A stretch of 64,000 bases of DNA, from the NCBI GenBank assembly GCA_013297865.1, contig JAAFIP010000005.1, positions 124,001 to 188,000 of the forward strand, read 5' to 3'. The DNA is from Polaromonas sp. (GTDB lineage: Bacteria; Pseudomonadota; Gammaproteobacteria; Burkholderiales; Burkholderiaceae_C). The stretch's first letter is position 1. Each line of letters opens with the position of its first letter. This document shows positions 6,209 through 64,000 of this stretch, in pieces. The notes under the pieces were generated by a model. The model was not told the DNA's origin, did not search any database, and saw only the letters and a program-made list of their open reading frames with translations. The position numbers and the translations under genes are program-made.

Positions 6209-6239
6209 TGGCGCGCCTGCTTTTTTAATGCTTTTAGCC

Positions 6240-6288
6240 CTGCAGCCCAATAGAATATCGCGGGAGCAGCTATGAAAATAATAGTAAA
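6240..6288 (+). repeat. Dispersed repeat copy 1
   Basis: Contains CCCAATAGAATATCGCGGGA, then GCAGCTATG and an AT-rich tail. It lies between purB and yaeQ. The ATG inside the repeat opens a seven-codon frame (MKIIVKG, then TAG) ending just before yaeQ. The GGAG of the repeat core lies 6 nt upstream of this ATG. Confidence 0.85.
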
Positions 6289-9918: not shown

Positions 9919-9944
9919 ACGCCCTGGTTTATATACCCAACAAG

Positions 9945-9990
9945 CCTGCAGCCCAATAGAATATCGCGGGAGCAGCTATTTAATTTGTAG
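9945..9990 (+). repeat. Dispersed repeat copy 2
   Basis: CCTGCAGCCCAATAGAATAT followed by the CGCGGGAGCAGCTATTTAAT tail. It lies directly upstream of modB. A CATAAT box begins at its right end (9991-9996), 6 nt before the modB ATG, so the insertion may have brought or altered the modB promoter. Confidence 0.88.
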
Positions 9991-12137: not shown

Positions 12138-12213
12138 GCTGCGCAAGTAGCGCAGCTGGGGCGCAATCAAGGGGGGTGAAGTCTAGAGATAGGGAGCAAT
12201 TGAGAATATCGAC

Positions 12214-12263
12214 GCTACAAATACTATAGCTGCTCCCGCGATATTCTATTGGCCTGGAGGCCT
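12214..12263 (-). repeat. Dispersed repeat copy 3
   Basis: Reverse orientation: TATAGCTGCTCCCGCGATAT then TCTATTGGCCTGGAGGCC. It lies between modC and the small membrane protein gene, which reads toward it. Confidence 0.88.
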
Positions 12264-12316
12264 AAAAGGCATTGAAAAGAGGGTGAAAACCGCTCCGTTC
12301 AGTGCCTGCAGGGCAT

Positions 12317-13120: not shown

Positions 13121-13236
13121 GCGAGTAAGCGGGGCGGCACACGCGCAGAGTGCTGAGTGCTCTGCCTGAACTGCCTGCGCTATCTGTATGGGCCGCACTG
13201 GCTGAGCTGCCCACCGCAGACAATAATACACTTCAT

Positions 13237-13288
13237 TACTATTATTTTCATAGCTGCCCGCGCGATATTCTATTGGCCTGGCAGCCTG
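13237..13288 (-). repeat. Dispersed repeat copy 4
   Basis: Reverse orientation, with CATAGCTGCCCGCGCGATAT and TCTATTGGCCTGGCAGCC. It lies between the converging DUF1161 and threonine ammonia-lyase genes. The core has one changed base (CCCG for TCCC region) relative to other copies. Confidence 0.85.
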
Positions 13289-13329
13289 AAACACCTGCAA
13301 ATCAGGCCTGGTAGCAAGGCTGCCAAAAC

Positions 13330-17019: not shown

Positions 17020-17033
17020 TTGATGCATCTCTC

Positions 17034-17082
17034 AGCCCTCCAAGCCAATGGAATGCCGCGGGAGCAGCTATTTATTTAATAG
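17034..17082 (+). repeat. Dispersed repeat copy 5 (diverged)
   Basis: AAGCCAATGGAATGCCGCGG then GAGCAGCTATTTATTTAATA. It has several substitutions in the core. It lies between the convergent double-AAA and phoX genes. Confidence 0.75.
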
Positions 17083-21466: not shown

Positions 21467-21479
21467 ACCACTGATGCTA

Positions 21480-21525
21480 CTAGATTAATAGCTGCTCCCG
21501 CGATATTCTATTGGGCTGGAGCCTG
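21480..21525 (-). repeat. Dispersed repeat copy 6
   Basis: Reverse orientation: TAATAGCTGCTCCCGCGATA then TTCTATTGGGCTGGAGCCTG. It lies between the thioesterase stop and the recQ start on the same strand. Confidence 0.88.
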
Positions 21526-21543
21526 ATTTTATGTGAAAAAGGC

Positions 21544-26528: not shown

Positions 26529-26555
26529 TACGCTTTCAACGCACTTTTTAAGTGC

Positions 26556-26610
26556 TCTATTGGCCTGCAGGCCAATAGAATATCGCGGGGGCAGCTATTA
26601 ATTTAGTAGC
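26556..26610 (+). repeat. Dispersed repeat copy 7 (fullest palindrome)
   Basis: Has the complete 22-bp palindrome at its left end (26557-26578: CTATTGGCCTG mirrored by CAGGCCAATAG), then AATATCGCGGGGGCAG and the right palindrome CTATTAATTTAGTAG. It abuts the proC stop codon (CTA at 26610-26612). This copy best shows the two-hairpin design. Confidence 0.9.
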
Positions 26611-27422
26611 TAACCACCAAACTCATCACCCAGCTCCTTGGCGCGTCTGCGCGCGGCATGCATCGCGCGCATGAACATCGTGTCCACGCTGTCCTGCTGC
26701 ATCGAGGTGATGGCTGCATAGGTGGTGCCGCCTTTGGAGGTGACGCGCTGGCGCAGCACCTCGGGGCTGTCTGCAGAGCCATGCGCCAGCGCAGACGCAC
26801 CGGTGAAGGTGGCCTGGGCCAGGCGCGCAGCCTGCTCGGGCGACAGACCCATGTCGATACCCGCCTTGGTCATGGCTTCCATAAAGAAGAACACATACGC
26901 CGGACCCGAGCCGGACAGCGCGGTGACGGCATCAAGCTGGCTCTCGCTATCCAGCCACAGGTGCTCTCCCGTCGTGCTGATCACCTGCTCGACCTGCTGG
27001 CGGTCCGCCGCAGTGACCGCAGCGCGCGCAAACAGTGCGGTGATGCCTTTGCCGATCAGCGCGGGCGTGTTGGGCATGCAGCGCACCACGCGGTCGGTGC
27101 CCAGCCACTGGGCTATGCTGTCCGAGCGGATGCCCGCGGCCACACTCAGGTGCAGCGCCTGGGCAGTGTGCACTTTGGCGGCCAGTGCAGCGGTCTTGAA
27201 GACCTGCGGCTTGACCGCCCAGACCACCAGGCCGGCCTGGCTGAGCATGCTGTTGGGCGCGGCAAAGGCCTCAATGCCAAACTCGGCTTTGAGCCTGGCG
27301 TGCTGCGCACTGTCGGGCTCGACCACCATGCACTGCATAGGGCGCATGCCCTGGCGGATCAACCCGCCGATGATGGCGCTGGCCATGTTGCCGCCGCCGA
27401 TGAATACCATTTTGTCAGCCAT
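26610..27422 (-). CDS. proC: Pyrroline-5-carboxylate reductase
   Basis: 270 residues when started at MADKMVFIGGGNMASAIIGG. It has a Rossmann NADPH site GGGNMASAI (~9-17), the conserved VWAVKPQ strand (~70), and the C-terminal dimer/active-site signature DAVTALSGSGPAYVFFFMEA (~residues 164-183). It performs the last step of proline synthesis. A longer open frame extends upstream to 27539 but its extra residues are unlike the family and run into the next gene's control region, so the ATG at 27422 is preferred. The stop codon touches a dispersed repeat. Confidence 0.96.
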   Translation of the reverse strand: MADKMVFIGGGNMASAIIGGLIRQGMRPMQCMVVEPDSAQHARLKAEFGIEAFAAPNSMLSQAGLVVWAVKPQVFKTAALAAKVHTAQALHLSVAAGIRSDSIAQWLGTDRVVRCMPNTPALIGKGITALFARAAVTAADRQQVEQVISTTGEHLWLDSESQLDAVTALSGSGPAYVFFFMEAMTKAGIDMGLSPEQAARLAQATFTGASALAHGSADSPEVLRQRVTSKGGTTYAAITSMQQDSVDTMFMRAMHAARRRAKELGDEFGG

Positions 27423-28650: not shown

Positions 28651-28761
28651 AACTACTAAGTCTATCCGCAGTGAGGCCAAAGCCACGCCCTACTGCAACG
28701 CTCAGTACGCCGGTCTGCGCAGTCGGCAACGCCTTCGTTTTGCCTGAAAAGCCCACCAAGA

Positions 28762-28812
28762 TACTATGAATTTAATAGCTGCCCCCGCTATATTCCATTG
28801 GTCTGCAGCCTG
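28762..28812 (-). repeat. Dispersed repeat copy 8
   Basis: Reverse orientation: ACTATGAATTTAATAGCTGC, then CCCCGCTATATTCCATTGGT and a CTGCAGCCTG end. The core is slightly diverged. It lies between the divergent phytase-like and tautomerase genes. Confidence 0.82.
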
Positions 28813-28915
28813 TTTTAATGCCTAAAACATGCTGGTTGGCAGCGTTTTTTGCATCAATCGCGTCCTGCGCGGCGACATACTCACCATATGTCCCTGCCTG
28901 CAAAAGGAAACCATC

Positions 28916-43678: not shown

Positions 43679-43714
43679 GCCTGCTCAGACCTGTTTTTTA
43701 TATGCAAATCGTCC

Positions 43715-43760
43715 ACCAGACCAATAGAATATCGCGGGAGCAGCTATGAAATTCATAGTG
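43715..43760 (+). repeat. Dispersed repeat copy 9
   Basis: ACCAGACCAATAGAATATCG then CGGGAGCAGCTATGAAATTC with the right palindrome CTATGAAATTCATAG. It lies between amgK and rsmE, and its ATG begins the mini-ORF at 43746. Confidence 0.88.
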
Positions 43761-43784
43761 CCTACTTTGCACTGCCTGCACTGA
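43746..43784 (+). CDS. Repeat-derived 12-codon mini-ORF coupled to rsmE
   Basis: The ATG inside the repeat, with GGAG 6 nt before it, opens MKFIVPTLHCLH and stops with TGA at 43782-43784. That TGA overlaps the rsmE ATG as TGATG, a classic translational-coupling arrangement. No separate ribosome site is seen for rsmE. Whether it is translated is untested. Confidence 0.35.
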   Translation: MKFIVPTLHCLH

Positions 43785-46318: not shown

Positions 46319-46344
46319 GCACTGCGCATTATCAGTTCGCGGGC

Positions 46345-46395
46345 ACTATAGTTTTTATAGCTGCTCCCGCGATATTCTATTGGCCTGCGGGCCAA
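46345..46395 (-). repeat. Dispersed repeat copy 10
   Basis: Reverse orientation: TTATAGCTGCTCCCGCGATA then TTCTATTGGCCTGCGGGCCA. It lies between convergent yidB and the alpha/beta hydrolase. Confidence 0.88.
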
Positions 46396-46462
46396 TTTTG
46401 CTTTAAAAAGTGCCCGTTGACGCACACCAGGCAGGCGCGCACGCCCTCGCGCGATGCCAGGC

Positions 46463-51552: not shown

Positions 51553-51586
51553 ACGCTGTCAGTTGACACATTTTTTATGCTCCATC

Positions 51587-51637
51587 GGCCTCCAGCCCAA
51601 TAGAATATCGCGGGACCAGCTATGAAATTTATAGTAA
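51587..51637 (+). repeat. Dispersed repeat copy 11 (reaches into the nucleotidase start)
   Basis: GGCCTCCAGCCCAATAGAAT, then ATCGCGGGACCAGCTATGAA and ATTTATAGTAAA. The core has one change (GGGACC for GGGAGC). Its right arm contains the ATG and first five codons of the gene at 51622. Confidence 0.9.
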
Positions 51638-53292
51638 ACCACTCTTTGTATGCAGCTGCATCTCCCCGCCTGGCGCTGCGCGCAGGCAGCCTGAGCGCAC
51701 TGGCGCTGCTGGCGGCCTGTGCCACCCAAGGGCCAGCGCCCGTCAGCGGCCCTGTCAAGCTAACGGTGCTGCACACTAACGACCACCATGGCCGTTTCTG
51801 GAAAAACTCTGACGGCGAATACGGCCTGGCAGCGCGTAAAACCCTGATCGACAGCGTGCGTTCCGAGGTCAAAGCCGCAGGTGGCCACACCTTGCTGCTG
51901 GACGGCGGCGATGTCAACACCGGCGTGCCCGAGAGTGACACGCAAGACGCCGAGCCGGATTTCAAGGGCATGAAGCTGCTGGGCTATGACGCCATGGCTT
52001 TGGGCAACCACGAGTTTGACAAGCCCCTGCCGGTGCTGGCCAAGCAAATGGCCTGGGCGGGCTTTCCGATGCTGTCGGCCAATATCTACAAAGACGGCCA
52101 GCGCCTGTTCAAACCGTACGAGATGTTCGAGCGCGGCGGCCTGAAGATCGCCGTGCTGGGCCTGACCACCGATGACACCGCCAAAATGGTCGATCCGGCC
52201 AATGTGGCTGGCGTGGAGTTTCGCAAGCCCGCGCGTGAAGCAGCGGCGCTGATGCCTGAGCTGAAAAAGCAGGCGCATGTCGTGATTGCGGCCACCCACA
52301 TGGGCCACTACACCAATGGTGCGCGGGGCGTCAACGCCGAGGGTGATGTCGAGATGGCACGCCAGGTCAAGGGCCTTGACCTGATCGTCGGCGGCCACAG
52401 CCAGAACCCGGTGTGCATGCTGGACCAGCTCAACCGCAATGATGCCTATCAGCCCGGCGGCGCATGCAAGCCCGACCAGCAAAACGGCACCTGGATTGTG
52501 CAGGCGCATGAGTGGGGCAAATATGTGGGCCGAGCGGATTTTGAATACGCAGGCGGCGAGCTCAAGCTGGTCAAATACACGCTGATTCCCGTGAACCTGA
52601 AAAAGACCGTCAAGGCTGCCGACGGCAAAGACCAGAAAGTCTTTGCCACCAGCGAGATTGCCGAGGACGCAGCCACCCTGGCCTTTTTGCAGCCCTTCCA
52701 GGACAAGGGCCGCGCCGCACTCGATGTGGTGGTGGGCGAGTCTGATGGCAAGCTCGAAGGTGATCGCGCGGTGGTGCGGGCCCAGCCTACCAATCTGGGG
52801 GTGTTTATCGCCAGCGTCATGCAGCAGCGCGCCAAGGCCGATGTGGGCATCATGAACTCCGGCGGTATCCGCGACTCCCTGCCTGCGGGCAAGCTGACCT
52901 ACAAGGACGTGCTCAAGGTGCAGCCCTTTGGCAACATGCTGGCCTATGTGGACCTCAGCGGCAAAGAGCTGATGGACTACCTCAACGCCGCCGCCAAAAT
53001 GAGCGCGGGCTCTGGCGCGTTTGCGCAGTTCTCCGGCGTGCAGCTGGTGATCGAAGCGGGCGCAGTCAAAACTGCCACCATCAAAGGCGCAGCGATTGAC
53101 CCGGGCAAAACCTACCGACTCGCGCTCAACAACTTCCAGGCCAACGGCGGTGACGGCTACCCCAAACTCAGCAACCACCCCGGCTATGTCAACACCGGCT
53201 TTGTAGACGCCGATGTGATGCGCGAATACCTCAGCAAAAACGGCATCAAGGCCGCCAATTTTGCGCCGGGTGAGGCCGTAGTGCGGCGCTAG
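51622..53292 (+). CDS. 5'-nucleotidase/metallophosphatase lipoprotein (UshA/NadN-like)
   Basis: 556 residues. The lipoprotein signal (arginine-containing stretch to ALALLAAC, ~residues 15-34) is followed by the calcineurin-like domain: TVLHTNDHHGRF (~48-59), LLDGGDVNTGVPESD, MALGNHEFD (~130-138), VIAATHMGHY and IVGGHSQNP, i.e. the dimetal ligands. The C-terminal nucleotide-binding domain begins near residue 360 (MNSGGIRDSL; FGNMLAYVDLSG; NFQANGGDGYPKL). It degrades periplasmic nucleotides or NAD. The ATG and MKFIV are encoded by a dispersed repeat, whose GGGA replaces a normal ribosome site; no better downstream start with a complete signal is seen. Confidence 0.92.
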   Translation: MKFIVNHSLYAAASPRLALRAGSLSALALLAACATQGPAPVSGPVKLTVLHTNDHHGRFWKNSDGEYGLAARKTLIDSVRSEVKAAGGHTLLLDGGDVNTGVPESDTQDAEPDFKGMKLLGYDAMALGNHEFDKPLPVLAKQMAWAGFPMLSANIYKDGQRLFKPYEMFERGGLKIAVLGLTTDDTAKMVDPANVAGVEFRKPAREAAALMPELKKQAHVVIAATHMGHYTNGARGVNAEGDVEMARQVKGLDLIVGGHSQNPVCMLDQLNRNDAYQPGGACKPDQQNGTWIVQAHEWGKYVGRADFEYAGGELKLVKYTLIPVNLKKTVKAADGKDQKVFATSEIAEDAATLAFLQPFQDKGRAALDVVVGESDGKLEGDRAVVRAQPTNLGVFIASVMQQRAKADVGIMNSGGIRDSLPAGKLTYKDVLKVQPFGNMLAYVDLSGKELMDYLNAAAKMSAGSGAFAQFSGVQLVIEAGAVKTATIKGAAIDPGKTYRLALNNFQANGGDGYPKLSNHPGYVNTGFVDADVMREYLSKNGIKAANFAPGEAVVRR

Positions 53293-59550: not shown

Positions 59551-59566
59551 CGTTTTCTTTCACACA

Positions 59567-59725
59567 TCTGGCTTTTGTACATTGCGGCGATTGAGGAAGT
59601 TGGGCTGTCAAAAACTTGCGAAAACACGCGGCCACGCAAGCAACAATCTGGAGTGGATCCCCGCGCCTTTCTCCAGTTTTGCATCCCAACCACGCTCAAT
59701 CACCGCTTGCAGAGTTTTGTAGCGC
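59567..59725 (+). repeat. Left arm of the ~160-bp inverted repeat
   Basis: About 159 bp, ~93% identical to the complement of 62285-62445. Shared words include TTGTACATTGCGGCGATTGA, GCGAAAACACGCGGCCACG and CCACGCTCAATCACCGCTTG. Differences cluster in a ~15-bp patch (~59636-59652). Reading the minus strand gives a protein-like segment that is frameshifted between arms, so it may be a decayed gene tail or a non-autonomous element. Confidence 0.8.
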
Positions 59726-62127: not shown

Positions 62128-62462
62128 AGAACCATAGCTTCTATAAAAGTGCCTGCCACGCCGCCGCATGGCAAACCTTGTGCAAATAGGATTGGAGGCC
62201 CCGGCGGAGGCTGCTCTTGCAATCAGGTAAAAATCATTTTAGCCACACTTTCCAGCAAAGGTGGCTGGTCGTGCCCAAGCATGCGCGCTACAAAACCCGG
62301 CAAGCGGTGATTGAGCGTGGTTGGGATGCAAAAACTGGAGAAAGGCGCGGGGACCCACTCCAGCGCGTTACTCCCGTGGCCGCGTGTTTTCGCAAGTTTT
62401 TGACAGCCCAACTTCCTCAATCGCCGCAATGTACAAAAGGCAGATTCGACATCTTCAAACGC
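62128..62462. other. 335-bp region holding the right repeat arm
   Basis: No gene seen besides fragments of the repeat. It contains the right arm of the inverted repeat (62285-62445) and a ~115-bp stretch before it with no clear signal. Confidence 0.5.
62285..62445 (-). repeat. Right arm of the ~160-bp inverted repeat
   Basis: Complement of 59567-59725 with ~10-11 differences and a one-base indel (five T for four in AGTTTTTGCATCC). It ends 18 bp from the putA stop. The arms bound ~2.56 kb of accessory DNA. Confidence 0.8.
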
Positions 62463-64000
62463 CTAGCCCGCAAGCAAAGCCGCATTGCCCCCCGCCGCTG
62501 TGGTGTTGATAGTCACCGTCTGCTCTGCGCAGAAGCGGTACAGATAGTGTGGCCCGCCGGCTTTGGGCCCGGTGCCTGACAGGCCTTCGCCGCCAAATGG
62601 CTGCACGCCCACCACGGCGCCGATGGTGTTGCGGTTGATGTAGACGTTGCCGATGTGGGCCGCGCTGGCCAGCGCTGCGGCGCGAGTGTCGATGCGGGTC
62701 TGGATGCCCATGGTCAGGCCGTAGCCCAGGGCGTTGATCTGCGCGATGACCTGCAGCGGGTCGCCGCTGTAGCGCACCACCTGTAGCACGGGGCCAAAAA
62801 TCTCGGCGCTGACGTCTGCTATGCTGCGCACTTCAAACATCTGTGGTGCTATTAAATTAAGAGCTGCTTCCGCGATATTCTGTTGGTCTAGCAGTGGTTT
62901 TTGTTGCAAATTGAGGCGTCCAATATGCTTTTGAATGCCCTGGTAGGCCTCGCCATCAATCACCCTTGGCACATCAGTGGCCAGCTGCGCGCTGTCGCCA
63001 CAGACCAGCTCTTTGGCAGCGCCTGCAATCATCTCTATAACCCCGTCGGCAATCGCCTCGTGCACGCACAGCAGGCGCAGCGCCGAGCAGCGCTGGCCTG
63101 CGCTGCGAAAGGCTGACTGGATCACCGCGTCGCACACCTGCTCTGGCAGGGCCGATGAATCGACCACCATGGCGTTGATGCCGCCGGTCTCGGCAATCAG
63201 CGGCGTGATGGGGCCGTCTTTGGCGGCGAGCGCGCGGTTGATGATGCGGGCCACCTGGGTGGAACCGGTGAAGACGACACCGGCGATGCCTTGCAAAGCA
63301 ACCAACGCCGCGCCCACCGTCTCACCCGGCCCGTGGCATAGCTGCAGCGCACCTTCGGGCACACCCGCAGCGTGCAGCAGCTTGACCGCTTCCAGCGCCA
63401 CGCCCGGCGTCTGCTCGGCGGGCTTGGCCAGCACGGTGTTGCCCGTGGCCAGCGCTGCAGCCACCTGGCCGATAAAGATCGCTAGCGGAAAATTCCACGG
63501 GCTGATGCAGACCCACACACCACGCGCCTTCAGACGCAGCTCGTTGGACTCTCCCGTGACACCGAGTGTCACCTCGTAATTTTTGCCCAGCGTCGCTTCG
63601 TTACCTTTGCCCGGCATCTGCATCGGCAGCATGATGCGCTCGGCCTCCACAGCGTAGTAGCGCAAAAAATCCACCGCTTCGCGCACTTCGGCCACGGCGT
63701 CGCCCCAGGTTTTGAAGGCCTCTTTCACCAGCAGTGCGCAGAACGTGGGCAGCTGGGCCTGCAGCGCATCGGCCGCAGCGTGCAGCACGGCGGCGCGCTG
63801 AGCGACTGGTTGACCGCTCCAAATCTGGTAGCTGGCCGTGCTGATTTTCATGGCTGCTGCGGTCTGCTGCACATCAAACTCTGGCACGGTGGGCACGGCG
63901 CTGGTGTGCAGCGCCTGCAGCAGCGGCGCGCGCATGCCCTCGTCGGCCAGGTCCACGCCGTCGCTGTTGCGCCGCGCGCTGCCCAGGATCTGCGCGGGCA
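62463..64000 (-). CDS. putA: Bifunctional proline dehydrogenase / P5C dehydrogenase (partial, C-terminal region)
   Basis: The last ~512 codons are inside the window; the reading frame continues past the right edge (ILGSARRNSDGVDLADEGMR precedes what could be read as a GTG start at 63956), so the N-terminus is outside. The aldehyde dehydrogenase domain shows WVCISPWNFPLAIFIGQVAA, AKPAEQTPG, FTGSTQVARIIN, the catalytic-Glu region LIAETGGINAMVVD, the nucleophile in SAGQRCSALRLLC, and PFGGEGLSGTGPKAGGPHYL. It oxidises P5C to glutamate. A dispersed repeat (62848-62894) lies in frame, contributing about 14 residues (DQQNIAEAALNLIA) in a loop before FEVRSIADVSAEIFGP. Confidence 0.93.
   Translation of the reverse strand, partial: PAQILGSARRNSDGVDLADEGMRAPLLQALHTSAVPTVPEFDVQQTAAAMKISTASYQIWSGQPVAQRAAVLHAAADALQAQLPTFCALLVKEAFKTWGDAVAEVREAVDFLRYYAVEAERIMLPMQMPGKGNEATLGKNYEVTLGVTGESNELRLKARGVWVCISPWNFPLAIFIGQVAAALATGNTVLAKPAEQTPGVALEAVKLLHAAGVPEGALQLCHGPGETVGAALVALQGIAGVVFTGSTQVARIINRALAAKDGPITPLIAETGGINAMVVDSSALPEQVCDAVIQSAFRSAGQRCSALRLLCVHEAIADGVIEMIAGAAKELVCGDSAQLATDVPRVIDGEAYQGIQKHIGRLNLQQKPLLDQQNIAEAALNLIAPQMFEVRSIADVSAEIFGPVLQVVRYSGDPLQVIAQINALGYGLTMGIQTRIDTRAAALASAAHIGNVYINRNTIGAVVGVQPFGGEGLSGTGPKAGGPHYLYRFCAEQTVTINTTAAGGNAALLAG
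62848..62894 (-). repeat. Dispersed repeat copy 12, in frame inside putA
   Basis: Complement reads ACCAACAGAATATCGCGGAA then GCAGCTCTTAATTTAATAGC. Changes at CCAATAG and GGGAG avoid a stop in the putA frame. It codes roughly DQQNIAEAALNLIA. Confidence 0.88.

Follow-up and report, generated by a model that had tools for sequence, protein, structure and literature searches.

The stretch of putA examined here, in a Polaromonas genome, is a true though slightly decayed member of a family of dispersed repeats of about 60 nt, and it keeps the reading frame of its host gene. Taken as a whole, the reading that we favour and consider fairly probable is that this non-autonomous repeat occupies an old site within the gene, whose letters were overwritten or refilled in this lineage. 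We also put forward a more general proposal, as a possible but more doubtful one: that in-gene copies are continually overwritten by the current repeat population, through conversion or homing, such that the loops of enzymes are rewritten lineage by lineage while the site itself is inherited.

The window, that is, the whole stretch of 64,000 nt that was analysed (G000:C23:124001-188000 in the 3.99 Mb of genome searched), contains a 27-nt core, ATAGCTGCTCCCGCGATATTCTATTGG, in 12 copies with up to three mismatches, compared with none in 100 shuffles. One of them, with three mismatches, lies within putA, which bears out the original prediction of a dispersed repeat in this gene. A coding-frame test places the other 11 outside coding-like frames, and we take these to be intergenic (Table 1). 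Across the genome, a 19-nt part of the core is found 634 times at up to three mismatches (308 forward, 326 reverse; reversed control 0), with a mean distance of about 6 kb between copies. At up to two mismatches, the genome has 592 copies, while four of the 298 further genomes sampled from the family have a single match each, the reversed core likewise giving single matches in three of them; given this near-absence, the core is private to the Polaromonas genome within that sample. The element extends around the core to about 60 nt, with CTAT...ATAG in an AT-rich part to one side, and with an A-rich tail as well as a variable GGCC-rich part to the other; its consensus has a GC content of about 42% (counted by hand). 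A stable hairpin as a conserved feature is unsupported for this genome, since its own consensus folds with a z-score of -0.96 and 35 of 200 shuffles fold as well; the Polaromonas-type consensus folds well (z -2.57). Scanning the window against Rfam at gathering thresholds gave no match.

Table 1. Copies of the repeat in the window (non-coding: outside coding-like frames) and the gene that hosts the in-frame copy
Feature	Positions	Strand	Remarks
Repeat copy, non-coding	6231..6284	-	27-nt core 6247-6273
Repeat copy, non-coding	9937..9990	-	core 9953-9979
Repeat copy, non-coding	12211..12278	+	core 12226-12252
Repeat copy, non-coding	13235..13302	+	core 13250-13276
Repeat copy, non-coding	17029..17082	-	core 17045-17071
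Repeat copy, non-coding	21473..21540	+	core 21488-21514
Repeat copy, non-coding	26542..26617	-	core 26572-26598
Repeat copy, non-coding	28760..28827	+	core 28775-28801
Repeat copy, non-coding	43691..43766	-	core 43721-43747
Repeat copy, non-coding	46342..46409	+	core 46357-46383
Repeat copy, non-coding	51567..51642	-	core 51597-51623
putA, C-terminal part (P5C dehydrogenase part), runs off the window	62463..63998	-	open frame of 1016 aa in the genome
Repeat copy inside putA	about 62847..62905	-	59-nt element frame; 3 mismatches in the 27-nt core

With respect to the core as written, putA is coded on the antisense strand. The copy is in frame and encodes DQQNIAEAALNLIA, and the 59-nt element codes ..PLLDQQNIAEAALNLIA; the loop carries the letters CAACAGAATATCGCGG, and the peptide coded by the repeat is of the type ALAQQNIAGAAI. 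At the position of the TAG stop of the consensus, the putA copy reads CAG, and the frame of the gene stays open through the repeat, as had been predicted. Could such a resemblance have arisen by coincidence, or by convergent codon use? The loop is rich in Ala and Gln, and this copy belongs to the most diverged ones of the window, sharing its count of 3 mismatches in 27 positions with two others of the 12. We nevertheless regard chance as extremely unlikely, in view of the empty shuffles, the lack of any match to the reversed core in 852 kb of the same genome and a score of 36.1 bits with a profile pooled from four other genomes, to be compared with a null maximum of -15.8. In an AlphaFold model (mean pLDDT 74.7), the loop is located between a helix (349-365) and a strand (386-390), with a pLDDT of about 60, and according to this model it is likely surface-exposed; the best PDB matches of the model are PutA structures, with a poor superposition overall (TM 0.52, rmsd 9.5). 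Directly downstream of putA, the window also contains long inverted-repeat arms (59566-59725 and 62285-62445), which pair over 115 nt at 93% and 49 nt at 96% complementarity; the segment of about 2.6 kb between them looks like a duplicated or mobile segment.

The putA copy is one of many within genes. In a sample of 852 kb, consisting of the window and 40 stretches chosen along 14 contigs, we found 146 copies at up to six mismatches (reversed control 0). Counting a copy as in-gene where an open frame runs through it and codon use is coding-like on both sides, 24 of the 146, about one in six, lie in coding-like frames, and the parallel originally drawn with the in-frame palindromic elements of Rickettsia is thereby strengthened. 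Recognisable families in NCBIfam or Pfam account for 21 of the 24 copies, putA included: the further hosts are UvrC, PurL, TruB, two oligopeptide-type ABC ATPases, PrmB, ArgE, an MlrC relative, MetC, DadA, RlmD, a LysR regulator, a YgfZ protein, 3-hydroxyisobutyryl-CoA hydrolase, an amidase, an acyl-CoA synthetase, EarP, HisZ, an O-antigen-ligase relative and a SpoU methylase. The NCBIfam scan covered 20 of the 24 copies, of which 18 matched, with those in L158, L162 and L177 outside the scan; Pfam matches were obtained for the copies in L162 and in L174, the latter without an NCBIfam match, the other scanned copy without one being that at L154:6501-7256.

These copies share a preference for one reading. 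Thirteen of the 24 use the frame antisense to the core as written, approximately A-L-A-Q-Q-N-I-A-G-A-A-I-x-x-I-A, compared with an open share of about 13% for this frame in non-gene copies (binomial p 2e-6; the share is approximated by subtracting in-gene from open counts), and none of the 24 uses either of two frames that 55 and 28 copies leave open. The favoured frame contains TAG in 80 of 121 non-gene copies, while the codon at this position is CAG or CAA in 9 of the 13 favoured-frame copies and in 9 of the 121 non-gene copies (one of the 146 copies, at a stretch edge, is left out of these counts). Some of these nine non-gene copies also look coding and may have been missed by the thresholds. 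We set aside a Fisher test of stop versus non-stop codons, since an open frame was the basis on which in-gene copies had been selected. CTAG precedes the core in 8 of 19 CAG/CAA copies but in 6 of 83 TAG copies (p 0.0005), a hint of a subfamily that is older or coding. The copy at L153:1368 lies in a lysine/alanine-rich open frame, in which AAG replaces the TAG stop.

Measured against solved structures, the copies differ in how much they add to their hosts: about 20 residues in MetC and 4 in TruB. In the amidase, there is no net gain, with 476 residues facing 476 profile positions; hence, in-gene copies are not all net insertions. In MetC, the stretch compared comprises 47 residues, whereas it has 27-39 in the best 29 of 35 matching relatives (59 were searched), in none of which we found a repeat; the greater length and the lack of a repeat in these relatives mark a lineage-specific insertion. 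Beside metC, a copy at L167:12006 agrees in its downstream letters with the one in metC (L167:9629), which suggests a partial duplication.

For PutA, length tells a different story from the addition of about 14 residues that had originally been proposed. Its loop has 50 residues, no more than in 81 of 86 distinct relatives: among 87 distinct loops, with our own included, 5 are shorter, 22 equal and 60 longer (range 48-91). A length of 50 residues is also seen in 16 of the 50 loop rows without a repeat, and an alignment with Bradyrhizobium PutA (4q72/3haz) gives a net difference of +3 in our loop. These comparisons cover 94 of 110 loci, window included, from Rhodoferax, Polaromonas and other Comamonadaceae, the closest relative having a PutA with 77% identity; 16 of 29 added loci were excluded for lying on the opposite strand, matches in L075 were dropped because this locus holds a second putA-like copy, and seven pairs of identical loops reduce the 94 to 87 distinct ones. 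An ordinary, recent MITE-like insertion that added some 14 residues to PutA would agree with the in-frame position in a variable loop and with lineage-specific insertions elsewhere, as in MetC, but it does not agree with the lack of a net length gain relative to most relatives, nor with the sister repeats that relatives carry at the same site and in the same phase, and we consider it very unlikely. Of the proposed mobility into coding DNA, the part that stands is past mobility as such, which is supported by the MetC insertion absent from the 29 examined relatives; PutA itself is no simple new insertion.

The sister repeats, which differ from ours in their middle part, are abundant in several of these genomes. 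The pattern TAGCTGCTNGCGC is found at 237 places in L044, 214 in L046, 106 in L089, 99 in L041, 96 in L037, 92 in L073 and 88 in L049 (control 0-2); it is low in L036 and L050 (8 each) and at or near the control in 9 of 21 genomes (L035, L040, L032, L090, L110, L086, L034, L064 and L054). In L034, L032 and L040, the PutA loop is occupied, yet the pattern counts are 0, 7 and 7 against controls of 0, 9 and 3; like our genome, these three may hold other cores. A profile pooled from four relatives gives at least 14.7 bits to 44 of the 94 loops, or 39 of the 87 distinct ones, while the remainder stay at or below -10.1. The corresponding null comprises 279 putA segments outside the loop and the linker, with the maximum given above; it replaces a first null (maximum 61.9), made unusable by a further copy of the repeat that relatives carry in the linker of PutA. 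Three loops (L048, L056 and L078) at -10 to -13 bits exceed this null maximum and may be decayed copies; they are counted as being without a repeat. It is not the case that all related PutAs have the same residues without a repeat, so that the original proposal withstands this objection.

All 39 distinct occupied loops have the repeat on one strand and in one codon phase, and the offset is identical in 36 of the 44 occupied rows. On a PutA tree (81 rows, loop removed), the repeat's presence changes 10 times, with at least 7 changes forced by well-supported branches, against a mean of 27 upon shuffling. A single ancestral insertion kept by all is excluded by these 10 gains or losses. On this evidence, the site is old and was probably inherited in parts of the family, with turnover. 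Neither a conversion tract nor a target duplication was seen, and among relatives at most 77% identical in PutA, none shows the loop on either side of a core switch in this lineage. The second in-frame repeat, in the linker that joins the two enzyme parts, scores at least 15 bits in 39 of the 94 loci and -3.2 in the window, which lacks it; it lies about 1 kb upstream of the loop in L041, L044, L037, L045 and others (e.g. ..KLASSAYTTSASSYKVWSK), in a different reading phase.

Within this shared site, the letters follow the genome rather than the site in the five genomes tested. We compared profiles from the five genomes concerned, those of the four relatives being built from 15 copies each and aligning gaplessly with our own; our putA copy was excluded from its own-genome profile, and no PutA copy is among the printed members of the profiles. 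In five of five PutA loops, the own-genome profile scores best: 63.7 against at most 36.9 bits in the window, 62.9 against 56.5 in L041, 27.0 against 20.3 in L044, 62.5 against 49.2 in L042 and 50.9 against 47.3 in L046. By simple arithmetic, the chance of this outcome is (1/5)^5 = 0.0003, although the margins are small in L041 (6 bits) and L046 (4 bits) and the L044 loop reaches only 27 bits. Since the letters of our loop belong to the private core of its own genome, an inherited copy would have been overwritten, or the site refilled, after that core arose.

RlmD repeats the PutA pattern, its site being filled with other cores in some relatives and empty in others: among the best 29 of 56 matching relatives, 13 score at least 22.9 bits at the same site with other cores (the fourteenth scores 8.6), and 6 are 11 residues shorter, i.e. 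have an empty site. This recurrence might also be read as target preference, with the PutA loop and the RlmD site as preferred targets into which the lineages inserted separately after their cores had diverged, nothing being inherited. The 10 changes on the PutA tree are in keeping with this, and so is the resemblance of the repeat end (..ATAGC / TTTGTAGC) to native codons, NLIA in PutA and FVA in RlmD, as expected of a preferred target. It is also favoured by the unrelated repeats that have settled in the PutA loop of other species, of which there are at least two and probably three. A palindrome of the CCGGNTCAAGNCCGG type occupies the loop in L090, L086 and L110, and is found at 43, 26 and 98 places in these genomes (up to one mismatch, control 0), but at none in those of L050 and L089 at the same threshold. 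In L089, the loop holds a palindrome of the GCGTTTTGC...GCAAAACGC type, for which the genome of L089 has 19 places, that of L099 17 and that of L073 13 (up to two mismatches, control 0); in the PutA of L073, which the tree places closest to L089, the usual repeat is present. Lastly, the insert in L050 matches two further stretches of the same locus, one at 95% over 37 nt and one at 81% over 48 nt. What speaks against independent insertion is the common orientation and phase throughout, together with the exact offset in most rows, where other orientations and phases would be expected, even if only open frames would survive. On balance, we consider it rather unlikely. Two details concern the same loop: the repeat type of L090, L086 and L110 (CCGGNTCAAGNCCGGNATGAC) is followed by a small tandem array in the last of these, and in a Rhodoferax group (L089 and L099), the usual repeat is replaced by the GCGTTTTGC...GCAAAACGC palindrome, apparently in a shortened form in L099.

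The favoured reading, an old site with renewed letters, could have come about as follows. A short non-autonomous repeat would have been copied in trans by some enzyme, landing mostly outside genes, and in-frame copies would have been tolerated in protein loops, such as the presumed surface loop of PutA, once a stop-free reading was reached. The PutA site itself is old, as relatives have their own versions of the repeat there, with orientation and reading phase unchanged. Gene conversion by one of the genomic copies could then have overwritten the letters, or a new copy could have refilled the site after the core of this genome arose; refilling is suggested by the diversity of the unrelated occupants, and conversion by the constancy of orientation and phase. 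In either case, native codons at the junction may have been absorbed, such that the loop did not grow.

How does this repeat compare with known systems? It resembles REPs and REPINs in its hundreds of short copies, which are mostly outside genes, and in the presence of one RAYT-like gene in the genome. This single Y1_Tnp gene (L181:15215-15919, G000:C12) scores 50.1 bits against a cut-off of 23, and the 20 kb around it contain one copy, a perfect one, 0.6 kb upstream, compared with the mean genomic spacing given above; one gene and one nearby copy are too little to claim RAYT as the mobiliser. GTAG closes 34 of 145 copies, whereas it lies on the other side in canonical REPs. The GTAG and CGTC super-families have been described in a study whose available portion names neither Polaromonas, Rhodoferax, Acidovorax nor Comamonadaceae (PMC3733652), and the available portion of an account of Rhodoferax ferrireducens mentions only CRISPR repeats (PMC2755013). 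Among the papers searched on Comamonadaceae repeats, intragenic palindromes and PutA insertions, we found no description of the element, only motif fragments in Polaromonas and Acidovorax. As far as the accessible text goes, these are spaced motifs given as two potential novel pairs: ATAGCT(N)22CAAAAG, with 125 copies in Polaromonas naphthalenivorans, 18 of them in genes, and GCTTAT(N)5AAGCG, with 114 copies in Acidovorax ebreus, 5 of them in genes; the copies are mostly intergenic (PMC5217627). Going by their letters, the ATAGCT start and the GCTTAT..AAGCG stem, they are very probably sister repeats; in contrast to the present analysis, they were described there, in the portion accessible, without an element, a frame, a peptide or lineage-specific cores.

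Another repeat known from this group is BRE, which occurs in Bordetella, Polaromonas, Rhodoferax, Delftia and others, usually in intergenic regions but with some copies entirely within coding sequences; in the part of its description at hand, it measures about 90 bp, has 64-79% GC and at most 29 copies per genome, and is often in tandem (PMC3110155). By this description, the window repeat is set apart by its length (about 60 nt), GC content (about 42%) and copy number (about 630). The occupant of the L089 loop fits BRE better in size and GC and might be one. Small non-autonomous repeats with some copies fused in frame to genes are also known as ERIC, Correia/NEMIS and other MITEs, according to the excerpts available (PMC2229807; for ERIC and Correia also PMC10969869). 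The Polaromonas repeat is like them in being small, non-autonomous and partly fused in frame, and unlike them in being much shorter and in belonging to other taxa.

The closest likeness is to the Rickettsia palindromic elements (RPEs), dispersed palindromic repeats that are found in intergenic regions as well as in frame in unrelated genes, as described in the accessible portions of two sources (PMC2229807; PMC10969869). Both have intergenic copies as well as in-frame ones within genes that are unrelated, and their in-gene copies share an open frame and a conserved peptide. By contrast, RPEs are 105-150 bp long with a long stem-loop and have rickettsial hosts, whereas the present repeat has about 60 nt, a consensus that folds no better than many shuffles and some 630 copies in a member of the Comamonadaceae. 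Furthermore, its favoured frame has a consensus stop that is absent from in-gene copies, and its in-gene sites are common to several genera, with genome-specific cores. By analogy, it would work like an RPE, but it is a separate family, set apart by host, length and description rather than by RPE sequence. The best-known palindromic repeats in frame within genes are those of Rickettsia, which may merely decay within proteins or may keep a link to the genomic family. With orthologous in-gene sites (PutA and RlmD), which across many genomes of free-living relatives are occupied, empty or taken by something different, and with a lineage-specific insertion in MetC, both the proposal that mobile palindromes give rise to protein segments and the concerted evolution of bacterial repeats become directly testable.
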